Below are positions 1-41,310 of a DNA stretch of 64,000 bases, piece by piece. Both the position numbers and the translations under genes were made by a program. The DNA lies in NCBI RefSeq assembly GCF_002355635.1, contig NZ_AP017558.1, positions 682,001 through 746,000 on the forward strand, in the 5' to 3' direction. Every line of letters begins with the position of its first letter. Position 1 is the first letter of the stretch. The notes beneath the pieces were generated by a model. It ran no database searches and had not been told where the DNA came from. It saw only the letters and a list, made by a program, of their open reading frames with translations. Source of the DNA: Halopenitus persicus (GTDB lineage Archaea; Halobacteriota; Halobacteria; Halobacteriales; Haloferacaceae).

Positions 1-2474
1 TCCCGAAGGCCCTCTCGGGGTACGGCTACACGCTCCGGTTTATGCAGGGGGATCGGACGGGCGGGGATGGGACGGGACCGGCCGGTGAAAGCGCGGTTGG
101 ACCGGGCGACGAAAGCGCAGCGGGGCCGGCGGGCAGTGGGAGTGCTCCCGGAGTCACGGCCGGCCGGTCGACCGACCCGACGCTCGAGCGCCTCGCGATC
201 GGCGGCTTCCTCGCGATGCTCGTGATGCCGTGGTACGTCCTCTCCCTGTATCCCAGCTATCTCGGGATCGAGACGAACGTGTTGGCGATCGACACGACCA
301 CGCCAGTGGGGCGATACCTGCCGCTGGCGTTCATCGCGCTGGTGACGACGGTACTGGTGGCCACCACCGGCGCGCCGATCCTTCGAGGGGCGTACGTGAG
401 CCTCCGAGCGAGACGGCCCAACATGGACCTTCTCGTCGCCGTGGCCGCCCTGTCGGCGTACGCCTACAGCACCCTCGCGCTCGCGACCGGGAGCACGCAC
501 CTCTATTACGACGTCACGGTGGCGGTCGTGATGGTCGTCTCGCTGGGCCGCTACTACGAGGGCCGGGTTCGATCCCGGGCGACCGACCTGTTGGAGACGG
601 TCACGGCTGCTCGGGTCGAGTCGGCGACGCGAATCACCGACGCCGGCCGAGAGACGGTCCCGATCGGGGCTCTCGAGCCCGGCGACCGGATCCGGGTCGC
701 GCCGGGCGAGCGCGTCCCCGTCGACGGGACCGTGATCGAGGGGATCGCCGACGTCGACGAGTCCGTGATCACCGGCGAGTCGCTGCCGATTCGGGCGGAA
801 CCGGGCGAGACGGTGGTCGGCGGCGCGAGGGTGCTCGGCGACGTCGGCCACGGCGATGGGGTGGAGGGCGAAACGGACGATGAAGCCGAGAGCGGCGCCG
901 ACAGTGCAGCCGAGAGCGGCGCCGACAGTGCAGCCGAGAGCGGCGCCGACAGTGCAGTCGAGGGAGACGCCGGCAGTGCAGCCGAGGGCGGCGCGATCGA
1001 GGTCCGGGTCGGCGAGGACGCCGAGAGCACGGCCGACCGCCTGGCCGCCGCGCTGTGGGAGGTCCAGACGACCACGCCGGGGATCCAGCGGTTCGTCGAC
1101 GCGCTCGCGACCGTCTTCGTGCCGGTGGTGTTGACGCTCGGGCTGGCGGTCGCCGCGTGGCAGCTCGTGGCTGGCGAGACGGTCGCCGCGGCGATGCTCG
1201 CCGGATTGACCGTGCTCGTCGTCTCCTGTCCGTGCGCGATGGGACTGGCCACTCCGCTCGCGGTCTCCGGCGGGCTGCGGGACGCCATCGCGCGCGGCGT
1301 CGTCGTCACTGACGGCTCCGTCTTCGAGTCCGCCCGGGAGGCCGAGACGATCGTCTTCGACAAGACCGGCACCCTCACTGCCGGGGAAATGCGAGTGAGC
1401 GCGGTCCACGGCGACGACCGGACGCTCGCCCGCGCCGCCGCGGTCGAGCGCCGCGCCGACCATCCGGTCGCCGACGCGATCCACGAGGCGGCCGCAGCCA
1501 GGCCCGACGGCGGCGAGGGGGGCGGTGTGGTCAAGGGAACGGCTCCCGGCGATCCGGCCATCTCGACGGACTCGACCGCATCGGGAGGCGACGGTCCCTC
1601 CGTCGAATCGTTCACCCACCATCCGGGGATGGGCGTCTCGGGAACGCTCGTCGACGACGACCGTGACGACCGTGGCGATCGGACCGAGCCGCCGGAACCG
1701 GAATCGGGATCGAGATCGGTAGCATCCGACGCGGCCGGCGATCGCGTGGTCGTCGGGACGCCCGACCTCGTCGAGCGCGAGTGTGGGCCGCTGCCGGCCG
1801 AGCTCGCCGAGCGCGTCGCCGCCGCCACGGACGACGGCGCGCTGCCGATCGCGGTCGGCTGGGACGGCGCGGCCCGCGGCGTGATCGTCGTGGCGGACCG
1901 CGATCGGGCGGGCTGGACGGCAACGCTGGAGGCGGTCGCCGACCGCGAAGTGGTGATTCTCACCGGCGACGACGGACCCCGCGCCCACCGGTTCCGGAGC
2001 CACCCGGCGGTCGACGAGGTCTTCGCCGGCGTCCCGCCGGACGGAAAGCTCGAGGCGGTTCGGGGATTCACGGCGACCGGCACGACGGTGATGGTGGGCG
2101 ACGGAACCAACGACGCGCCGGCGCTGGCGGCGGCGGACCTGGGGATCGCGATGGGCGACGGGACGGCCCGCGCCGTCGAGGCCGCGGACGTGGTGATCAC
2201 CGGCGAGGACCTCCGGACGGTCGAGACCGTCTTCGAGCTCGCGGCCGGGACGCGGCGGCGCATTCGCGAGAACGTGGCCTGGGCGCTCTGTTATAACGCG
2301 GTAGCCATCCCGCTGGCGGTCTCGGGGGCGCTCAACCCGTTCTTCGCCGCCCTGGCGATGGCCGCCAGCAGCGCCATCGTGGTGACGAACTCGACGCGTC
2401 CGGTGCTCGAGGACGATCCGGTGCTCGAGGACGATCCGGTTCTCGACGACGACTCGGAGTTCGAAGCGTCCTGA
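1..2474 (+). CDS. Copper-type P1B ATPase, 5' end cut by window edge
   Basis: Membrane pump that uses ATP to move a soft metal ion, most likely copper, across the cytoplasmic membrane. The frame is open from base 3, before the first ATG at 42, and the residues there (ALSGYGYTLR) look like the end of an N-terminal metal-binding domain, so the true start lies outside the window. Visible in order: membrane helices, actuator loop with TGES near base 770, CPC metal-binding motif at about 1227-1235, phosphorylation motif DKTGTLT from 1359, HP motif near 1460, and GDGTNDAP near 2098. Two acidic, low-complexity inserts interrupt the cytoplasmic domains (about 860-1000 and 1500-1720), and the C-terminus repeats VLEDDP. 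The following uspA is convergent. Family is certain; copper versus silver or zinc, and direction of transport, are inferred. Confidence 0.93.
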   Translation, partial: PKALSGYGYTLRFMQGDRTGGDGTGPAGESAVGPGDESAAGPAGSGSAPGVTAGRSTDPTLERLAIGGFLAMLVMPWYVLSLYPSYLGIETNVLAIDTTTPVGRYLPLAFIALVTTVLVATTGAPILRGAYVSLRARRPNMDLLVAVAALSAYAYSTLALATGSTHLYYDVTVAVVMVVSLGRYYEGRVRSRATDLLETVTAARVESATRITDAGRETVPIGALEPGDRIRVAPGERVPVDGTVIEGIADVDESVITGESLPIRAEPGETVVGGARVLGDVGHGDGVEGETDDEAESGADSAAESGADSAAESGADSAVEGDAGSAAEGGAIEVRVGEDAESTADRLAAALWEVQTTTPGIQRFVDALATVFVPVVLTLGLAVAAWQLVAGETVAAAMLAGLTVLVVSCPCAMGLATPLAVSGGLRDAIARGVVVTDGSVFESAREAETIVFDKTGTLTAGEMRVSAVHGDDRTLARAAAVERRADHPVADAIHEAAAARPDGGEGGGVVKGTAPGDPAISTDSTASGGDGPSVESFTHHPGMGVSGTLVDDDRDDRGDRTEPPEPESGSRSVASDAAGDRVVVGTPDLVERECGPLPAELAERVAAATDDGALPIAVGWDGAARGVIVVADRDRAGWTATLEAVADREVVILTGDDGPRAHRFRSHPAVDEVFAGVPPDGKLEAVRGFTATGTTVMVGDGTNDAPALAAADLGIAMGDGTARAVEAADVVITGEDLRTVETVFELAAGTRRRIRENVAWALCYNAVAIPLAVSGALNPFFAALAMAASSAIVVTNSTRPVLEDDPVLEDDPVLDDDSEFEAS
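885..980. repeat. 24-bp tandem repeat inside the P-type ATPase gene
   Basis: Three perfect copies of GCCGAGAGCGGCGCCGACAG plus TGCA lie at 885-908, 909-932 and 933-956, followed by one degenerate copy at 957-980. The unit is a multiple of three, so each copy adds eight residues (AESGADSA) to an acidic loop just after the TGES actuator motif. Copy number could vary by slippage without breaking the frame. Confidence 0.95.
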
Positions 2475-2513
2475 TCGGCGCTCGGAACGCGCCAGGGTCC
2501 GGGCGGCGGTGAC

Positions 2514-2942
2514 TTATTCCTCGATTCGAACGGTCAACACCGGCACCGGGGACTGCTTGACGACGCGCTGGGAGACGCTGCCGACGATGTTCCGCTCGTA
2601 GTTGTCGCCGCTGGTTCCCATCACGACGAGATCGATCCCGGCCTCCTCGACGTACTCGATGATCGCCGGCGAGGGGTCCCCGACGTCGACCGCCGAGGTC
2701 GTCGGGATCCCTCGGTCGGCCGCGGCGTCCACGGCGGCGTCGACCGCGGCACGCGCCTGCGCCTCGAGGTCGCTCCGGACCTCGTCGATGCGGTCGTCGT
2801 CGAGGGTCAGAAAGGAGCGGTCGTCGACGACGGACAGCACGTGCAGCGTCGCGTCCCGGGTTTCGGCCATGTCGAGGGCGTACTCGAGCACCGCGTCCGT
2901 CCGCTCGGTGCCGTCGGTCGGGAACAGGATGTGATCGAACAT
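2514..2942 (-). CDS. Universal stress protein (UspA family)
   Basis: Small cytosolic nucleotide-binding protein of 142 residues, the usual single-domain size. The start is set at MFDHILFPTDGT, which matches the first strand of the family; an upstream in-frame ATG at 3041 would add 33 residues unlike any Usp. The C-terminal ATP loop reads MGTSGDNYERNIVGS, which has eight rather than nine residues between the second Gly and the Gly-Ser. The strand PVPVLTV closes the domain. It is convergent with the metal ATPase; a role in stress survival is known for the family but no specific partner is visible here. Confidence 0.9.
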   Translation of the reverse strand: MFDHILFPTDGTERTDAVLEYALDMAETRDATLHVLSVVDDRSFLTLDDDRIDEVRSDLEAQARAAVDAAVDAAADRGIPTTSAVDVGDPSPAIIEYVEEAGIDLVVMGTSGDNYERNIVGSVSQRVVKQSPVPVLTVRIEE

Positions 2943-3192
2943 CAACGGGCGAATCGAGGCTCGTCGGCTATTTAAGTTCGCCGTGCTCGGCCGGGCGGAA
3001 CGCGGCGGTCGGTTGACGCTGGTCGTCACCGATGGCCGCATCGAACACGTGTGCTACCCGATCTTCCCTCGGGTGAGCACGCGGCTGACGGTCCCGAATG
3101 GGTGAGGGAAAATCCCCGGTGGATGGAACGACACGTCGTGTGCCGCCAGCCATCCCGTTCCATCGTCCGAGCTTTCGTACCGTCTCGGTATG

Positions 3193-3513
3193 TTAGACGG
3201 GCGGGTCCGCGTCGTCACCGAACCCGCTCCCGTACGACTCGACGACTTCCGTAACGATGACTTCGTATGCATCGTACCACTCCGTCCACCGCCGTTTCGC
3301 ACGTTCGTGGTCGGAGTCCGCCCCGAACGTCTCAAGCGCATCCAGCGACTCCCAGTAGTACACGACGAGAACCTCCTCGCTCTCCGGCGCATACCACGTC
3401 CGCTTGCCCAGATATCCCTCCGTCTCCTCGGCAGCAGCCTGTATCGCGTCGTTCAACTCGTGGAACTCCGCGTCATACTCCCCCGGATCGAGGCGGAACG
3501 TAACCAGATACAT
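3193..3513 (-). CDS. Antibiotic biosynthesis monooxygenase (ABM)-like protein
   Basis: A 106-residue protein with the ferredoxin-like ABM fold pattern: N-terminal strand MYLVTFRLDPG, an amphipathic helix, the segment GYLGKRTWYAPESEEVLVVYYWES and a second helix rich in acidic residues. These proteins dimerise and act as cofactor-free monooxygenases or heme-degrading or stress proteins, and many are uncharacterised. The start is the ATG of MYLVTF, with no sensible upstream alternative. It stands alone; the neighbour on the other strand is a broken regulator gene. Substrate unknown. Confidence 0.7.
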   Translation of the reverse strand: MYLVTFRLDPGEYDAEFHELNDAIQAAAEETEGYLGKRTWYAPESEEVLVVYYWESLDALETFGADSDHERAKRRWTEWYDAYEVIVTEVVESYGSGFGDDADPPV

Positions 3514-3556
3514 CAGTGCCGGAACTCACGCTTTCGCGGCCAAAATATCCGTTTCC

Positions 3557-3973
3557 GTGAACCGATTCAAGTCGCTTCTCAGGCAGGCGAACGAGGTCCG
3601 CTATCTTCGGCCGGAGGTTGCCTTGATGGAGCCCTGCTTCGACGTGCTCCTCTCGTTGGTTGACGCCAGTGTCGACGTAACGTTGGTCGACCGGCCGAGT
3701 TGTCACGCATACTTCATCACGACGTATCCCGAGCGCAGTTTAGAGCTGGAGAAACGGGACAATTTCACGGTTCTTGAGCATGACGAACTCCCCCAATGCG
3801 GAATCGGCCTGCTGGAAACCCGAGTTACCATCAGCTGTTACGGGCAGGACAGTGGGTCAGTCCAAGCAGTGATCGACACCGACGTTCCGGCCATCCGCGA
3901 GTGGGCAGAATCGATGTATGCGTCCTTCGAGATCGATGCGCGACCGGTCAACCGCGAAGCCTATCTCGAGTGA
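3557..3973 (+). pseudogene. Remnant of a FilR1-type (winged-helix) transcriptional regulator
   Basis: The reading frame from about 3557 gives the middle and end of the ligand-sensing domain found in haloarchaeal and methanogen regulators of the FilR1/DUF1724 kind: an internal segment about a position like VDVTLVDRP, then the characteristic GLLETRVTISCYG, then DTDVPAIREWAESMYASF near the C-terminus. The N-terminal winged helix-turn-helix that should precede it is absent, because the upstream DNA is the oppositely oriented monooxygenase-like gene. An ATG at 3626 could start a truncated protein, but it would lack DNA binding. I therefore call it a 5'-truncated pseudogene. Confidence 0.6.
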
Positions 3974-19860: not shown

Positions 19861-20373
19861 CATCCGACGAGCGAGCCGAACATCCGGCCCAGAAGCATTA
19901 CAGACCGACCGCCAGGCGCTCGAGTCGGTCGTTTCGGTGGGATGGATGGGCCCGTTCGACGCTGGTTTGACTCTCCGCAAGGATTAGCGTATGTTAAATA
20001 TACCAAATTCTACATATACACCGTAATATAGTAAATATTGTATTTAATATTTCCTTATATTTATGATTATTCATATTTAATCTGTATATCATAATTCAAC
20101 TTCGTGTTCATCGTAGTTCGGGGTGCCATCTCCACTGATCCGAGTTTAACCGTGTCACGTTAGACGGCGTGTTTAGCCCAGCTTGACACTAGTCGAAGCT
20201 GATTTACGCCGGATCGCGGTCTCACCAACACATTATTTCTCAGATCCGCGTCCGTCAGCAGTCTTTTGATCTCTTAATCTAGAGTTATAAATTATTCTAA
20301 TACTAATACATTTGTCATATATTAAAATTTTATTTGTCAACCTAATATAGCATAATAAAATGTGTGGGATTTG
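19861..20373. other. AT-rich left border of the genomic island, no gene seen
   Basis: From about 19985 the base composition falls abruptly from GC-rich to strongly AT-rich, with runs such as ATAGTAAATATTGTATTTAA. All frames are short and interrupted. The 3' end contains TATA-like sequences that belong to neither flanking gene with certainty. I see no tRNA, integrase or clear direct repeat that would mark an attachment site. Confidence 0.7.
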
Positions 20374-33231: not shown

Positions 33232-33426
33232 TCCCCTCTCACTCGGAGAGATATTTCCGACGGAGCGCGTGAGATCCTCAAGCTCGTCCCGCAGGGCGTC
33301 GGTGAGGAGTTACGTCCGGGAGACGTCGAGGAGATCAGCAACCTGATCCGCTCGCTCGACGAGCGACGGAGTAGGTTTTTGTCGCAGACAGCGGAACCTC
33401 GATCCGAATGGCCGAGCCGATCCTGA
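33232..33426 (+). pseudogene. C-terminal gene fragment between transporter and adenine methylase
   Basis: In the same frame as the transporter but after its TAG, codons from about 33247 read RDISDGAREILKLVPQGVGE and then a charged helix (GDVEEISNLIRSLDERRSRF) before a stop that overlaps the methylase start by 19 bases. There is no start codon in the frame. The strong haloarchaeal composition suggests the tail of a gene cut off when the methylase group arrived. I do not recognise the parent family. Confidence 0.35.
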
Positions 33427-34277
33427 AGTGGGCGGGCGGGAAACGCCAACTCCTCGCGGACATCACCGGACTGTTTCCGCGAACCTACGAGACGTATCAC
33501 GAACCGTTCGTGGGTGGTGGCGCGGTGTTCTTCCATCTCGAGCCCGCCGCGGCGATGATAAACGATCTCAACACGCGACTGACGACCTTTTATGAGGTCG
33601 TCCGAGACCACCCGGAGGAGTTGATCGACGAAAACCAGACGCACGAACACGCCGAGACGTACTACTACGACGCACGTTCGGAACTCAACGAGATACGGTC
33701 GGGAGAGGATCTCACGACCACGGATCGGATTCGCGAGGCGAGTCTCCTGTTATATTTAAACCGAACGTGTTTCAACGGTCTCTACCGGGAGAACAGCGAC
33801 GGGGACTTCAACGTCTCCTTCGGGAGATACGCTGATCCGGACTGGGTTCGGGGACGGGAGATTCGGGCGGCATCACGCGTGCTTCAGGAGGCCACGATTT
33901 ATAACACCGACTTCGGCTACGTCCACGAGGAAGCGACCGTCGGGGATCTGGTGTACTTCGATCCGCCCTACGAACCCGTGTCGAAGACGGCCGACTTCAA
34001 TTCATACCACGCCGATGGATTCGATCGCGACGACCAACGCCGACTCCGTGACGTCGCGGTTGAGTTGGCCGAGCAGGACGTCGCCGTGATCGTTTCGAAC
34101 TCGCCGCCGGTTACCGAACTGTACGATGACCACGATGCGTTCGACGTCACGTACGTCGAGGCGACGCGGGCGATAAACAGCGACGCGAGCAATCGCGGCG
34201 AGGTCGCGGAGGTTCTCATCACGAACGTTCCATCGAACGAGCGACGTCGACGAACGCTTTCGGACTTCGGGACGTGA
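33408..34277 (+). CDS. DNA adenine-N6 methyltransferase (D12 class / Dam-like)
   Basis: Modification enzyme of 289 residues. The SAM-binding motif near the start, LKWAGGKRQLL, and HEPFVGGGAVFFHLEP are typical of the D12 class, the LYLNRTCFNGLYRENS block follows, and the catalytic motif IV reads DPPY in VYFDPPYEPV. Members methylate adenine in short sites such as GATC; the site here is unknown. It is convergent with a large endonuclease gene 84 nt away, so they likely form a restriction-modification pair. Confidence 0.9.
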   Translation: MAEPILKWAGGKRQLLADITGLFPRTYETYHEPFVGGGAVFFHLEPAAAMINDLNTRLTTFYEVVRDHPEELIDENQTHEHAETYYYDARSELNEIRSGEDLTTTDRIREASLLLYLNRTCFNGLYRENSDGDFNVSFGRYADPDWVRGREIRAASRVLQEATIYNTDFGYVHEEATVGDLVYFDPPYEPVSKTADFNSYHADGFDRDDQRRLRDVAVELAEQDVAVIVSNSPPVTELYDDHDAFDVTYVEATRAINSDASNRGEVAEVLITNVPSNERRRRTLSDFGT

Positions 34278-34361
34278 GAGTACGGCTTTCTGAAACGACG
34301 TCCCTTTTAAATTTGCCAGGATGGGGGAATGACGCGAAAGCGTTCCTAATACACGATCGAG

Positions 34362-36023
34362 CTAGGAAAACTCCACCTCGAGCAAGTCAGCGGCTGCATC
34401 GACGTCGAAGAACTCCGAGCCATAGAACACCGACAACGGGAGTTCGCGATCGTCACTCGCATACTCGTCTTGCCACAGTTCTGCAAGCTCTTTGAGATCG
34501 GCCGCACGGACCAGGCGGATGTCCTTGCCGATCTGCATCTCCAGTCGTTCCGCATTCGTCGCTGCTCGGTCCGTGAAGTCCGGCGCAATGATCAGGAACC
34601 ACTCGACGTCGTGCTGTTTGGATTTGGTGTCGATGTAGCTCTTGATCTTGCTTCGCGCGTCGCTCCCGAGTCTGAACTCCTCCCGTCGCCGTTTATTATC
34701 CCACAACAGCCACCGTCCGTCCTGCTCGATCTCGCCGTCAGCGACCATTCCGGTGGCCTTCTGTCCCAGCTGGTTCACGCCATCGAGATCGAATGCTTCA
34801 CGAAAGATCTCGCCAGTCGCTTCCTCGAATAGGATATCGAGCTTCTCCTCGGCATTGTCGGCATCAACGAGGTCCTGTAGCTGTGGCGGGACCTGGTTGA
34901 CAGTCCCATCAGCGATCTCCTCGTAGGCGTCGATGTACAGATCGACCTCGGGTTCGCCCTGTTGGACGGATTTCTGTGACTGTTCGAAGTACTCGATGAT
35001 CGCCGAGACCATCTCATCCGTCTTTCGCTTGTGTGCATCGAGGCCGTACCGATCGACTATCTTCTTGAGGTCCTCCTTTTCAACGACCTCTTTGAGGAGT
35101 TCGCTGGGATAAATGCCGGCTTCGGCGATGTTCTCACGTCGGTTCTCGTTTCGACCATAGTTCTTGCCTTCGACGCCAAACTGCTCGCGGGCGTCGATCA
35201 ACACCGACTGGCGATCGAACACGTCGAGGGTCTCGAGCATTGCCAGCAGGTTCTCCTCGGACATCTCGTAGTACAGCCAGTCGCGAACGACGTCGATGTA
35301 ATCTTCGGGGATGCCCACCAATTCGTTGACGTCCTCCTCGTTTACTTCATAGACGAGCGCCTGCTCTTGCAGCGACCAGAGTCCTTTTTCGATCGTGTCG
35401 AGTGCGTGCTCGGGGCGATCCGACCGGGAAACCTTCGGAAACCGTCCAATGGCGGCGAGGCGTTTGAAAAAATCAAGCCAGGTATAATATTCGTGCTTGC
35501 TCTCCTGCGCCCGGTTGTGCAGCTCGAAGTAGCTATACACCATATGTAGCTCGGAATCGTCGATCTGGTTCTGATAGTCCACCGCAGCCTCCGCCAGATG
35601 ACGAAGATCGTCGGTCTCGACGAAGGTATCCTCATCATATCGTTCGATGAACGAACGTTGCCAGTTCTGAACCGCCTCCAGCAGGTTTCCCTTTGCCATA
35701 TTGTATTCTGGTTGCTGGATGAGCTGACGAAGAATACCGTACCGAATGACGAGTGCCTGATAGGGAGAATCGTTGATCGAGGTCAGACGGGGTGGCGTGA
35801 AATCGTTCAGTTCCGTGCTGATACGCTCAGGATCCGCAAGTGCAGGGACGTACGTCTCGAGATACGCCTCCCGGTCGTCGAACCCATCGTGTTTGAAATT
35901 CTCCGGATCGAATTCATCCGTTTCGGCCTTCGTATCGTCCTTGATGAACCGTTTCCGTTCGTGGCTGTTCCAGTCGGCATCGATGAGATCGCTGAGATAC
36001 ATATCCGGTTTGATTGGTATCAT
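34362..36023 (-). CDS. Restriction endonuclease with FokI-like C-terminal cleavage domain
   Basis: Large protein of 553 residues. The N-terminal 420 residues are helical, acidic and unrecognised, probably for DNA recognition and dimerisation. The last 130 residues look like the FokI cleavage domain: a catalytic Asp in MVADGEI, then DNK at 442-444 (WLLWDNKRRREEF), corresponding to the PD...DTK of FokI, then a helix SDARSKIKSYID and strand EWFLIIAPDF. This is the D-(D/E)XK type of active site. Convergent to the adenine methylase, it would cut unmodified DNA. Type IIS-like behaviour is inferred from the domain, not shown. Confidence 0.65.
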   Translation of the reverse strand: MIPIKPDMYLSDLIDADWNSHERKRFIKDDTKAETDEFDPENFKHDGFDDREAYLETYVPALADPERISTELNDFTPPRLTSINDSPYQALVIRYGILRQLIQQPEYNMAKGNLLEAVQNWQRSFIERYDEDTFVETDDLRHLAEAAVDYQNQIDDSELHMVYSYFELHNRAQESKHEYYTWLDFFKRLAAIGRFPKVSRSDRPEHALDTIEKGLWSLQEQALVYEVNEEDVNELVGIPEDYIDVVRDWLYYEMSEENLLAMLETLDVFDRQSVLIDAREQFGVEGKNYGRNENRRENIAEAGIYPSELLKEVVEKEDLKKIVDRYGLDAHKRKTDEMVSAIIEYFEQSQKSVQQGEPEVDLYIDAYEEIADGTVNQVPPQLQDLVDADNAEEKLDILFEEATGEIFREAFDLDGVNQLGQKATGMVADGEIEQDGRWLLWDNKRRREEFRLGSDARSKIKSYIDTKSKQHDVEWFLIIAPDFTDRAATNAERLEMQIGKDIRLVRAADLKELAELWQDEYASDDRELPLSVFYGSEFFDVDAAADLLEVEFS

Positions 36024-36119
36024 TACACAATAAATTACGCGTCGAGGGGGCTTATTCCGGAAAACGCCATCAATTACGGGGTTAGTACTTAAATGAGACT
36101 ACAAACGGTCCCATATCAA

Positions 36120-37145
36120 CTACGGTACCAACACGTACTCCTGACTCGGGCCACGCCCTGACGTCCGGATCTCCGGGAGCAGACCAAGCCATTCACCAAC
36201 GGTGCGTGCTCGACGATCGGTGGTCGACGCGGAGAGTTCGGTTTCAGCAGCGATGACGTCAGAGATGTCACTCCGCACAATCGTTCCGCCAGCCTCCAAC
36301 TCGTTGTACACACGCGAGATGATCTCGACGTCGCGAAGTTGTCGATATAACAGGTCGTCAGCGGCGTCCTGATCCCCGCGATCGAGATAGGCGAGATATT
36401 CCTCCCCGGTTCGCGTGAGTCCCCAGCGACGAAGGTCGTGGCCGTCGATCGTCACCTGCTCGTCCTTATGAAGGAACTCGAGGAGCCACGCAGCTATCGC
36501 GTAGTAATCGGACTGTCGAGGATCAAACGTGTCCGCCTCGTTGGTCCGGACGTACTCCGTGATCGCCGGTTTGACGTCGGCGCCGGCATCAACGGCCCTG
36601 AGGACGGTACGAACGATGTCGAAGTTGTCCGCCTGCGGGACCTCCAGGGAGGGAATGACGTCGTCGCGCACCGGCTTCTCGAACGCATTCCAGAAACCCG
36701 GATCGAGGTCGTACGAGCCCTCGTTCTCGACGACGCCGATCTCGCTGCTGACCATAATGCCAGCGAGATGGTCGCCATCGATGAGCCGGATATAGTCGCG
36801 TTCGGCGCTGTCGACGGCGCCGGATGTGAACGACGAAGTGGTGATGACGGTCCCGATATGGTAATTCTGGTCGGACAGTGCGCCTTTAAAACCCCGAATC
36901 GTTCGTGCGCCGACGGTGTTGCCCGGTGCGTACTGTTTGGCCTGCACCCCGAGCCGGGCGTGGAACAGGTCACGGTCGATGACGGCGTGGACGTCGATCC
37001 CTCCATCGCCGCGAAACGGCGTGAGTTCAAGGTCCCGAGTCCGTTCGGACCGTTCGATCACCATCTTGCAGAGCTGTTCGAACTGCTCGTGATCGATCGT
37101 CAGTCCCTGATCGAGCAGTTCGGCTTTCGCCGTCGACCGCTTCAT
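36120..37145 (-). CDS. Mrr-like restriction endonuclease
   Basis: Protein of 341 residues. Residues about 15-150 match the Mrr catalytic domain: FEQLCKMVIERSERTRDLEL, FRGDGGIDVHAV with catalytic D51, and GVQAKQY, in which Q68-A69-K70 is the Q-x-K form of the PD-(D/E)XK centre. The C-terminal half (about 165-341) carries winged-helix-like repeats (LRRWGLTRTGEEYLAYLDRG, GGTIVRSDISDVIAAETELS) likely for DNA binding or regulation. Mrr enzymes often attack methylated foreign DNA. It lies 96 nt from the FokI-like gene on the same strand, forming a three-gene defence group with the methylase. Confidence 0.8.
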   Translation of the reverse strand: MKRSTAKAELLDQGLTIDHEQFEQLCKMVIERSERTRDLELTPFRGDGGIDVHAVIDRDLFHARLGVQAKQYAPGNTVGARTIRGFKGALSDQNYHIGTVITTSSFTSGAVDSAERDYIRLIDGDHLAGIMVSSEIGVVENEGSYDLDPGFWNAFEKPVRDDVIPSLEVPQADNFDIVRTVLRAVDAGADVKPAITEYVRTNEADTFDPRQSDYYAIAAWLLEFLHKDEQVTIDGHDLRRWGLTRTGEEYLAYLDRGDQDAADDLLYRQLRDVEIISRVYNELEAGGTIVRSDISDVIAAETELSASTTDRRARTVGEWLGLLPEIRTSGRGPSQEYVLVP

Positions 37146-40272: not shown

Positions 40273-41310
40273 ATGCCCACGTCCGACCTCGATCCCGGTG
40301 ACGTCCACGTGCTCGATCTCTTCTGCGGCGGCGGCGGCCTCTCGGAGGGATTCCTCCGGGCCGGCTACGACGTCGTCGCCGGCGTGGACGTCAGCGAGGA
40401 CTTCCTCGCGACCCACGAGCACAACCACGAGGACGCGCTGGCGATCCGGGCGGACCTCGCGACGGTCGAGCCCGCCGAGTTCTTCGCGACGCACCCGATC
40501 GACCCCGACGCGATCGACGTCGTCATCGGCGGCCCGCCGTGTAAGGGGTTCAGCATCGCCGGCCACCGCGACCCCGACGACGATCGCAACTCCCTGGTCG
40601 GCAGCTTCATCGACTTCGTCGAGTTCGTCCAACCGGCCGTCTTCGTGATGGAGAACGTCCCCGGGATCACTTCGATGGAGGACGGCGACACCCTGCGGTC
40701 GATCCTGGCGGGCTTTGCCGACGCGGGCTACGAGAAGACGCGCTACGAGACGCTGAACGCCGCGGACTACGGCGTCCCACAGACGCGCCGCCGCGTGATC
40801 TTCATCGGCCGGCGGGACGGCGAGCAGCCGACCTATCCCGAGCGCACCCACGGCCCGGCCGAACAGACCACGCTCACCGGCACCCGGCGCCAGTCCTACG
40901 TCACCGTCGCGGACGCCATCCTCGACCGGGATCTCGAGGGGCTCCCGAACACCGAGACCACGGACCACTCCGCGGACATGGTCGACCGGATCGCCGACGT
41001 CGAGCCCGGCGAGAGCCTCTATGAGAGCTACGGCGACAGCTGGCGCCGACTCGAGCCCGACGCGCCCGCGTTCACGATCAAGGAGAACCACAACGCCCCG
41101 TTCATCCACCCCGAGAAGGACCGCGTCGGGACCGTCCGCGAGTGTGCCATCCTCCAGTCGTTCCCCGACGACTACGTCTTCCAGGGCGCAAAGAGCACGC
41201 AGCTGAAGGTGGTCGGCAACGCCGTCCCCCCGGGGCTCGCCAACGCCGTCGCCGAGGCCATCGCCGCAGACGTCGCCGCGATGCGACGCGCCGAGCCCGT
41301 CTCGGAGTAG
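40273..41310 (+). CDS. DNA cytosine-5 methyltransferase
   Basis: Modification enzyme of 345 residues. The C5-methylase motifs follow in order: motif I DLFCGGGGLSEGFLRAGYD, motif IV with the catalytic Cys in GGPPCKGFSIAGH, motif VI ENVPGI, motif VIII QTRRRVIFIG, and motif X VVGNAVPPGLANAVAEAI. The target-recognition region between VIII and X is short. There is no restriction gene adjacent, so it is either an orphan methylase or paired with an enzyme elsewhere. Its GC-rich codons suggest long residence in the host. Confidence 0.95.
   Translation: MPTSDLDPGDVHVLDLFCGGGGLSEGFLRAGYDVVAGVDVSEDFLATHEHNHEDALAIRADLATVEPAEFFATHPIDPDAIDVVIGGPPCKGFSIAGHRDPDDDRNSLVGSFIDFVEFVQPAVFVMENVPGITSMEDGDTLRSILAGFADAGYEKTRYETLNAADYGVPQTRRRVIFIGRRDGEQPTYPERTHGPAEQTTLTGTRRQSYVTVADAILDRDLEGLPNTETTDHSADMVDRIADVEPGESLYESYGDSWRRLEPDAPAFTIKENHNAPFIHPEKDRVGTVRECAILQSFPDDYVFQGAKSTQLKVVGNAVPPGLANAVAEAIAADVAAMRRAEPVSE

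Follow-up and report, generated by a model that had tools for sequence, protein, structure and literature searches.

The locus studied here lies in a 64,000-nucleotide stretch of the genome of Halopenitus persicus (NZ_AP017558.1, positions 682,001 to 746,000), hereafter called the window, and comprises three genes that the initial annotation had described as a single DNA modification and restriction group. The three open reading frames (ORFs) were confirmed at 33408-34277 (forward strand), 34362-36023 (reverse strand), and 36120-37145 (reverse strand). They encode a D12-class (Dam/DpnM-like) adenine-N6 DNA methyltransferase of 289 amino acids (aa), a FokI-like nuclease, and a nuclease of 341 aa containing Mrr_cat and DUF7226 domains, respectively. 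Homologues were searched for in a sample of 391 Halobacteria genomes. Taken together, the data favour a two-gene, Type II-like pair of D12 methylase and Mrr-like nuclease, interrupted by an inserted gene for a methylase-independent FokI-like nuclease, over one three-gene system (estimated probability of about 0.7).

The assignment of the first gene to the D12-class adenine methylases was borne out by profile searches (PF02086, E 5.6e-59; TIGR00571 dam, E 8.1e-78) and by the nearest chain in the Protein Data Bank, DpnM (2dpm; E 5.5e-62). Similarly, the third gene product proved to be an Mrr-type nuclease, as it matched PF04471 (E 2.8e-23), carried a C-terminal DUF7226 domain (PF23871; E 9.1e-8), and contained the GIDV..QAK motif from which its nature had been recognised. 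Homologues of the methylase were found in 95 of the 391 genomes (E 1e-30) and homologues of the Mrr-like protein in 34 (E 1e-20). A D12 gene adjoins the Mrr gene in 19 of these 34 genomes, belonging to six genera and four families, of which 17 contain an uninterrupted pair, one a broken pair (G006), and one, that of the window, an interrupted pair. In all 17 uninterrupted pairs (five genera), the two genes converge tail to tail, and their stop codons are -11 to +17 nucleotides (nt) apart with nothing in between. This includes 12 genomes of genus g2, in which methylases 72-75% identical to that of the window sit tail to tail with an Mrr-like gene and the stop codons are 15-17 nt apart, versus 1842 nt in the window. 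The linkage of methylase and nuclease genes across genomes, by which Type II systems are recognised, was thus found for the D12 and Mrr-like genes. Since the recurrent neighbour of the methylase is the Mrr-like gene, the initial proposal that the three genes form one group is not supported. In the two congeners of H. persicus that were present in the sample, no Mrr match was obtained, and the only D12 methylase was another homologue.

When 18 paired and 15 unlinked Mrr proteins (33 in total) were placed in a tree, 14 of the 15 unlinked proteins fell into one clade (support 100/100) and all paired proteins lay outside that clade; upon midpoint rooting, the paired proteins did not form one clade. 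In addition, unlinked Mrr genes were accompanied by a methylase of the window type (E 1e-30) in only one of 15 genomes, versus 95 of the 391 genomes overall, a comparison that is uncorrected for relatedness and in which eight of the 15 genomes belong to one genus. The simplest account of these patterns would be that the paired Mrr protein acts as the nuclease of a Type II-like system and that the unlinked Mrr proteins are methyl-directed. The initial annotation had foreseen a conflict between a methylation-blocked nuclease and a methylation-directed Mrr protein in the same group. Such a conflict probably does not arise in that form, given that this type of Mrr relative is found together with the methylase, whereas 14 of the 15 unlinked Mrr proteins represent a different clade.

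Sequence comparison of the methylases revealed a further feature of some of the paired enzymes. The window methylase and seven close paired methylases contain FNVS, where DpnM and the Dam protein of E. coli contain NVP. The latter motif is also present in five more distant paired methylases and in the aligned solitary ones, with the exception of the solitary methylase of G283 (FNVA). The replacement of NVP by FNVS may hint at an altered specificity of the methylase. Solitary D12 methylases that are 65-69% identical to that of the window and have no Mrr neighbour were seen at loci L080, L082, L075, L079, L081, L084, and L085. As judged by eye, the neighbouring frames resemble PCNA (L080 and L082) or an RrmJ-type methylase (L075, L079, L081, L084, and L085), so that these genes may represent orphan Dam methylases with conserved housekeeping neighbours. 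Furthermore, genome G124 (locus L120) contains two D12 genes back to back (1857-2867, reverse strand; 2918-3841, forward strand), about 7.5 kb away from an Mrr relative with an aberrant active site.

The product of the second of the three genes was not detected by profile searches on its own: the 553-aa translation gave no match in Pfam (E<=1), PADLOC (E<=1; 0 families), or PHROGs (E<=0.1) and a match at chance level only in NCBIfam (E 0.068). An alignment of 22 family members was made, in which the other sequences are 61-87% identical to the window protein; four of these 22 matched the FokI cleavage domain profile PF09254 weakly (best E 0.013). The homologues begin at codon 8 of the window ORF. 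Hence, whereas the ORF of 553 aa holds, the protein is probably 546 aa long and starts at position 36002 (34362-36002, reverse strand). A structure model built from the 22 sequences displayed predicted local distance difference test (pLDDT) values of 60-76 for residues 351-390 and mostly about 90 thereafter. The modelled C-terminus superimposed on FokI (2fok_B) with a Z-score of 16.4 (2.7 A over 157 residues; Foldseek E 1.6e-4) and on the nicking enzyme Nt.BspD6I (6qnz) with a Z-score of 15.8, versus Z-scores of about 9 for PD-(D/E)XK enzymes beyond the FokI/BspD6I group. Residues D422, D435, and K437, which display the catalytic D...D-x-K pattern and which we take to be equivalent to D450, D467, and K469 of FokI, are invariant in the alignment. 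The model and the invariant columns thus predict that the protein ends in a FokI-type PD-(D/E)XK cleavage domain (residues 350-546; 34365-34955, reverse strand). The proposal that the C-terminus adopts this fold was correct because the model matches FokI; the sequence profiles barely detect the domain. Its extent had been underestimated, as the part matching FokI comprises about 185 residues (351-534) instead of the last 130.

The N-terminal region (residues 1-349; 34956-36002, reverse strand), the presumed target reader, is mostly helical. Residues 1-113 and 188-246 had pLDDT values below 50 in both models, and approximately residues 250-343 formed confident helices. No Foldseek match was obtained for these 349 residues at E<=0.001, the best Z-score being 3.9, on a weak model (mean pLDDT 54), which agrees with the initial description of this part as unrecognised; as the model is weak, a known fold may still be present. 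A SAP-like motif suspected by eye at approximately residues 305-340 had no support from Pfam and is not claimed. The mean pairwise identity of the N-terminal region (0.71) was close to that of the nuclease domain (0.69), and no diversifying target-recognition domain was seen in this comparison. This conservation suggests that the specificity of the enzyme is probably the same across its hosts.

The FokI-like gene has a patchy distribution. The search yielded matches in 27 genomes, namely 20 carriers, three genomes with fragments only (G194, G059, and G185), which were left out of the carrier count, and four genomes with weak matches (31-34% identity; E 1.9e-4 to 9.1e-4), which were dropped as probable chance hits. 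Three of these weak matches (L055-L057) lie in frames that by eye resemble quinone-oxidoreductase-type enzymes, and the fourth is that of G112. The 20 carriers hold 21 genes, since G296 has two copies, and they include G225, in which the gene is split over two frames, and G335, in which it is spread over two contigs. Among 246 genomes of the phylum, the gene was found only in the window genome and in G026, both of which were already known as carriers. In addition, one copy is located on a plasmid, and the IMG/VR database contained one locus, on a contig classified as viral, with a gene identical to that of G357. The genomes G152 and G335 hold both the D12/Mrr pair and the FokI-like gene, at different places. 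The locus of the window is best read as a D12/Mrr pair that received the FokI-like gene as an insert. The insert is bounded by a left junction of 84 nt between the stop codons of the methylase and FokI-like genes (34278-34361) and by a right junction that includes the region upstream of the FokI-like gene (36003-36119). At the latter junction, the last few C-terminal residues of the window Mrr-like protein are by eye unlike those of its relatives, which suggests that the insertion may have altered them.

Mobility of the FokI-like gene was visible at another site as well. The gene fills a variable spot in two congeneric genomes. Of ten related genomes read, five had this spot empty (55-84 nt between the flanks), and the other five showed a different content or a different extent of the left-flank match. 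By eye, this spot is flanked by an intron-containing tRNA with anticodon CAT (approximately 7050-7190 in L141; from approximately 10560 in L040), for which neither ARAGORN nor Rfam returned a call. The gene is under purifying selection, with a dN/dS ratio of 0.062 for the copies of L039 and L040, the sole compared pair that is not near saturation; in the five comparisons involving the window copy, synonymous sites were saturated or nearly so. Furthermore, 15 of 20 copies have an element ATTGAAGT about 35 nt before the start codon; TTGAAGT is exact in 12 of these and has one mismatch in the other three. The exact heptamer in 12 of 20 upstream regions compares with 0.06 expected from shuffled sequences, an optimistic expectation given that the motif was picked by eye. 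This element, possibly a promoter or operator, is missing from the window copy, hence from the right junction, and from the four most distant copies among these 20 upstream regions.

A protecting methylase was not found consistently with the FokI-like gene. The other FokI-like loci (21) were read over at least 6 kb on each side, except for L054, in which the contig ends beside the gene. A D12 methylase of the window type was found at none of these 21 loci and an Mrr relative at one (L040; 32% identical over residues 16-131). With respect to whole genomes, the 20 carriers contained PF01555 in 16 cases and PF00145 in 11 (E 1e-10), and PF02384 in 15 and D12 in nine (E 1e-5). A D12 methylase was thus not found in 11 of the 20 carriers at E 1e-5, and the proposal that this enzyme protects the host against the FokI-like nuclease is not supported. 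None of these four families, the only ones searched, was common to all carriers; at the cut-offs used, G357 contained D12 and C5 methylases without PF01555 or PF02384, and G247 contained PF01555 only. The absence of a universal family among these four makes a conserved protecting methylase unlikely. Moreover, as carriers possess genes for D12, C5, and N4/N6 methylases, the corresponding marks are unlikely to be the target of the FokI-like enzyme, provided that those genes are active. Among the 21 genes, only that of the window has a methylase of the families searched within 5 kb on the same contig; for eight genes no methylase match was present on the same contig, some of these contigs being short. 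Ten secondary PF02384 rows were omitted from this list of distances, none of them closer to a FokI-like gene.

With regard to the surroundings of the three genes, the G+C content was 0.46-0.60 in nine of the ten 2-kb steps between approximately positions 20000 and 40000 of the window, versus 0.61-0.73 elsewhere in the window. This low-G+C stretch, which includes the three genes, is consistent with an acquired region. A gene for a C5 cytosine methylase (40273-41310, forward strand; PF00145, E 3.8e-59) is located about 3 kb past the Mrr-like gene.

In the preferred interpretation, the D12 methylase would mark the sites of the host and the Mrr-like enzyme would cut DNA that lacks this mark. A gene for a FokI-type nuclease, composed of a presumed reader of about 350 aa and a cleavage domain, would have landed between the two stop codons of the pair. 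Its product would cut foreign DNA by means of a fixed feature of the invader, such as a modification or structure that is absent from the host, and not at an unmethylated site of the host type. The FokI-like protein is therefore regarded as probably an uncharacterised, methylase-independent nuclease with a role in defence.

Several observations weigh against this interpretation. Another Mrr_cat gene lies beside the FokI-like gene of L040, and an ORF at the fragment locus L053 clusters with these Mrr proteins. Methylase-like genes lie 7-10 kb from the FokI-like gene in G131, G247, and G302, and a frame about 5 kb away in L050 (G389), which was not counted by the Pfam search, is a relative of the N-6 methylase annotated in L001. 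The presence of a methylase at family level, in addition, says nothing about its specificity. Concerning the pair, an early reading that genomes with an unlinked Mrr gene lack D12 methylases altogether was toned down, as six of the 15 contain one at family level (E 1e-5), and the presence of D12 in every paired genome is true by definition and hence no evidence. The Mrr tree contains several long branches, so that the paired type may still have a single origin. Active-site motifs of the Mrr protein are aberrant in both a paired (G037) and an unlinked (G124) case, and in G152 the Mrr frame comprises only 318 aa, less than in the others, and has one stop within the match. Finally, the tail-to-tail order could result from co-transfer of defence genes instead of joint function.

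Other explanations were weighed on the same data. FokI itself has methylase domains of the D12 class as its partner, and the physical adjacency and convergence of the genes in the window would fit a three-gene system, in which the host is shielded from the FokI-like enzyme by the D12 methylase and the Mrr protein adds a methyl-directed layer; the lack of window-type methylases at the other FokI-like loci, the carriers without a D12 match, and the 17 genomes in which the pair has no FokI-like gene between its members make this explanation very improbable. It is also unlikely that the FokI-like protein belongs to the Type II enzymes and is held in check by an orphan methylase located elsewhere in each genome. 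Haloarchaea do have orphan methylases, such as those for CTAG and GATC, according to two reports (PMC6471742, PMC10609329), PF01555 is widespread among the carriers, and a few FokI-like loci have a methylase-like gene at 5-10 kb, but no tested family occurs in all carriers, as the contrast between G357 and G247 illustrates, and the conserved N-terminal region indicates a specificity that probably does not depend on the host. A role of the FokI-like protein in repair or genome maintenance, and not in defence, would agree with the strong purifying selection and the conserved upstream motif; its patchy occurrence, in 20 of 391 genomes and in two of those of the phylum, together with the variable insertion spot and the split and fragmentary copies, renders such a role improbable.

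The nature of the paired Mrr protein may be read differently as well, namely as still methyl-directed (Type IV) and aimed at other marks, with the neighbouring methylase as an orphan kept beside it. The Mrr protein of Haloferax volcanii has been reported to act on GATC-methylated DNA (PMC6471742), unlinked relatives exist, and the methylase also occurs on its own, as in G327, which has a close relative in the paired genome G324. The abutting tail-to-tail order in six genera and the separation of all paired Mrr proteins from the clade that holds 14 of the unlinked ones speak against this possibility, which is considered rather doubtful. A pair of D12 methylase and Mrr-like nuclease, interrupted by an independent FokI-like gene, remains the preferred interpretation.

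Comparison with known systems places both components. The FokI-like protein has the predicted C-terminal cleavage fold in common with FokI and Nt.BspD6I, as well as a large N-terminal part before it and the conserved D..D-x-K residues, but differs in that N-terminal part, for which the weak models gave no significant structural match. Type IIS systems of the FokI kind have an adjacent cognate methylase; outside the window, no methylase of the families searched was found within 5 kb of the nuclease gene on the same contig. The Type IV protein HVO_0682 of H. volcanii shares the Mrr_cat domain and the GIDV..QAK motif with the window protein, and four of the eight unlinked Mrr proteins of genus g6 have a length of 334 aa, as implied by the 1005 bp of its gene (PMC5867850). 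This gene length, together with a neighbour that resembles a topoisomerase, suggests that g6 may be Haloferax. In contrast, the window Mrr protein has a D12 methylase as its partner, falls outside the unlinked clade, and is 39-42% identical to the g6 members. The window methylase resembles the GATC enzymes of the DpnII/Dam type (M.DpnIIA; the Dam-like cHG W / HG3 of haloarchaea) in being Dam/DpnM-like, but its partner nuclease is Mrr-like and it carries FNVS instead of NVP.

Two new arrangements are tentatively suggested jointly, with somewhat less than even confidence: an undescribed single-gene immune nuclease of haloarchaea with no methylase and with a uniform reader for one non-self feature in all hosts, and, in the interrupted pair, an Mrr protein of reversed polarity that would cut unmethylated DNA on behalf of a Dam-like methylase. 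Neither was described in the titles and abstract openings of the open-licence PMC literature on archaeal FokI, halophile Mrr, Mrr-like Type II enzymes, and DUF7226, a coverage that does not extend to REBASE, and a term search of the main text of PMC12988326 returned neither FokI nor Mrr.

The locus also serves as a warning that genes adjacent in a single genome can look like a system for which related genomes give no support. The FokI-like family, for which the profile libraries searched have no entry and its carriers no common methylase, is a candidate defence gene and possibly a new FokI-type module. As to the pair, Fullmer et al. 2019 (PMC6471742) reported that Mrr and Dam-like genes are not anticorrelated in Halobacteria, and suggested for some of the members that they are dysfunctional or differ in specificity. 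An Mrr protein with its own Dam-like methylase, set beside a separate clade of unlinked Mrr proteins, may provide a testable answer to this puzzle of Mrr/Dam coexistence.

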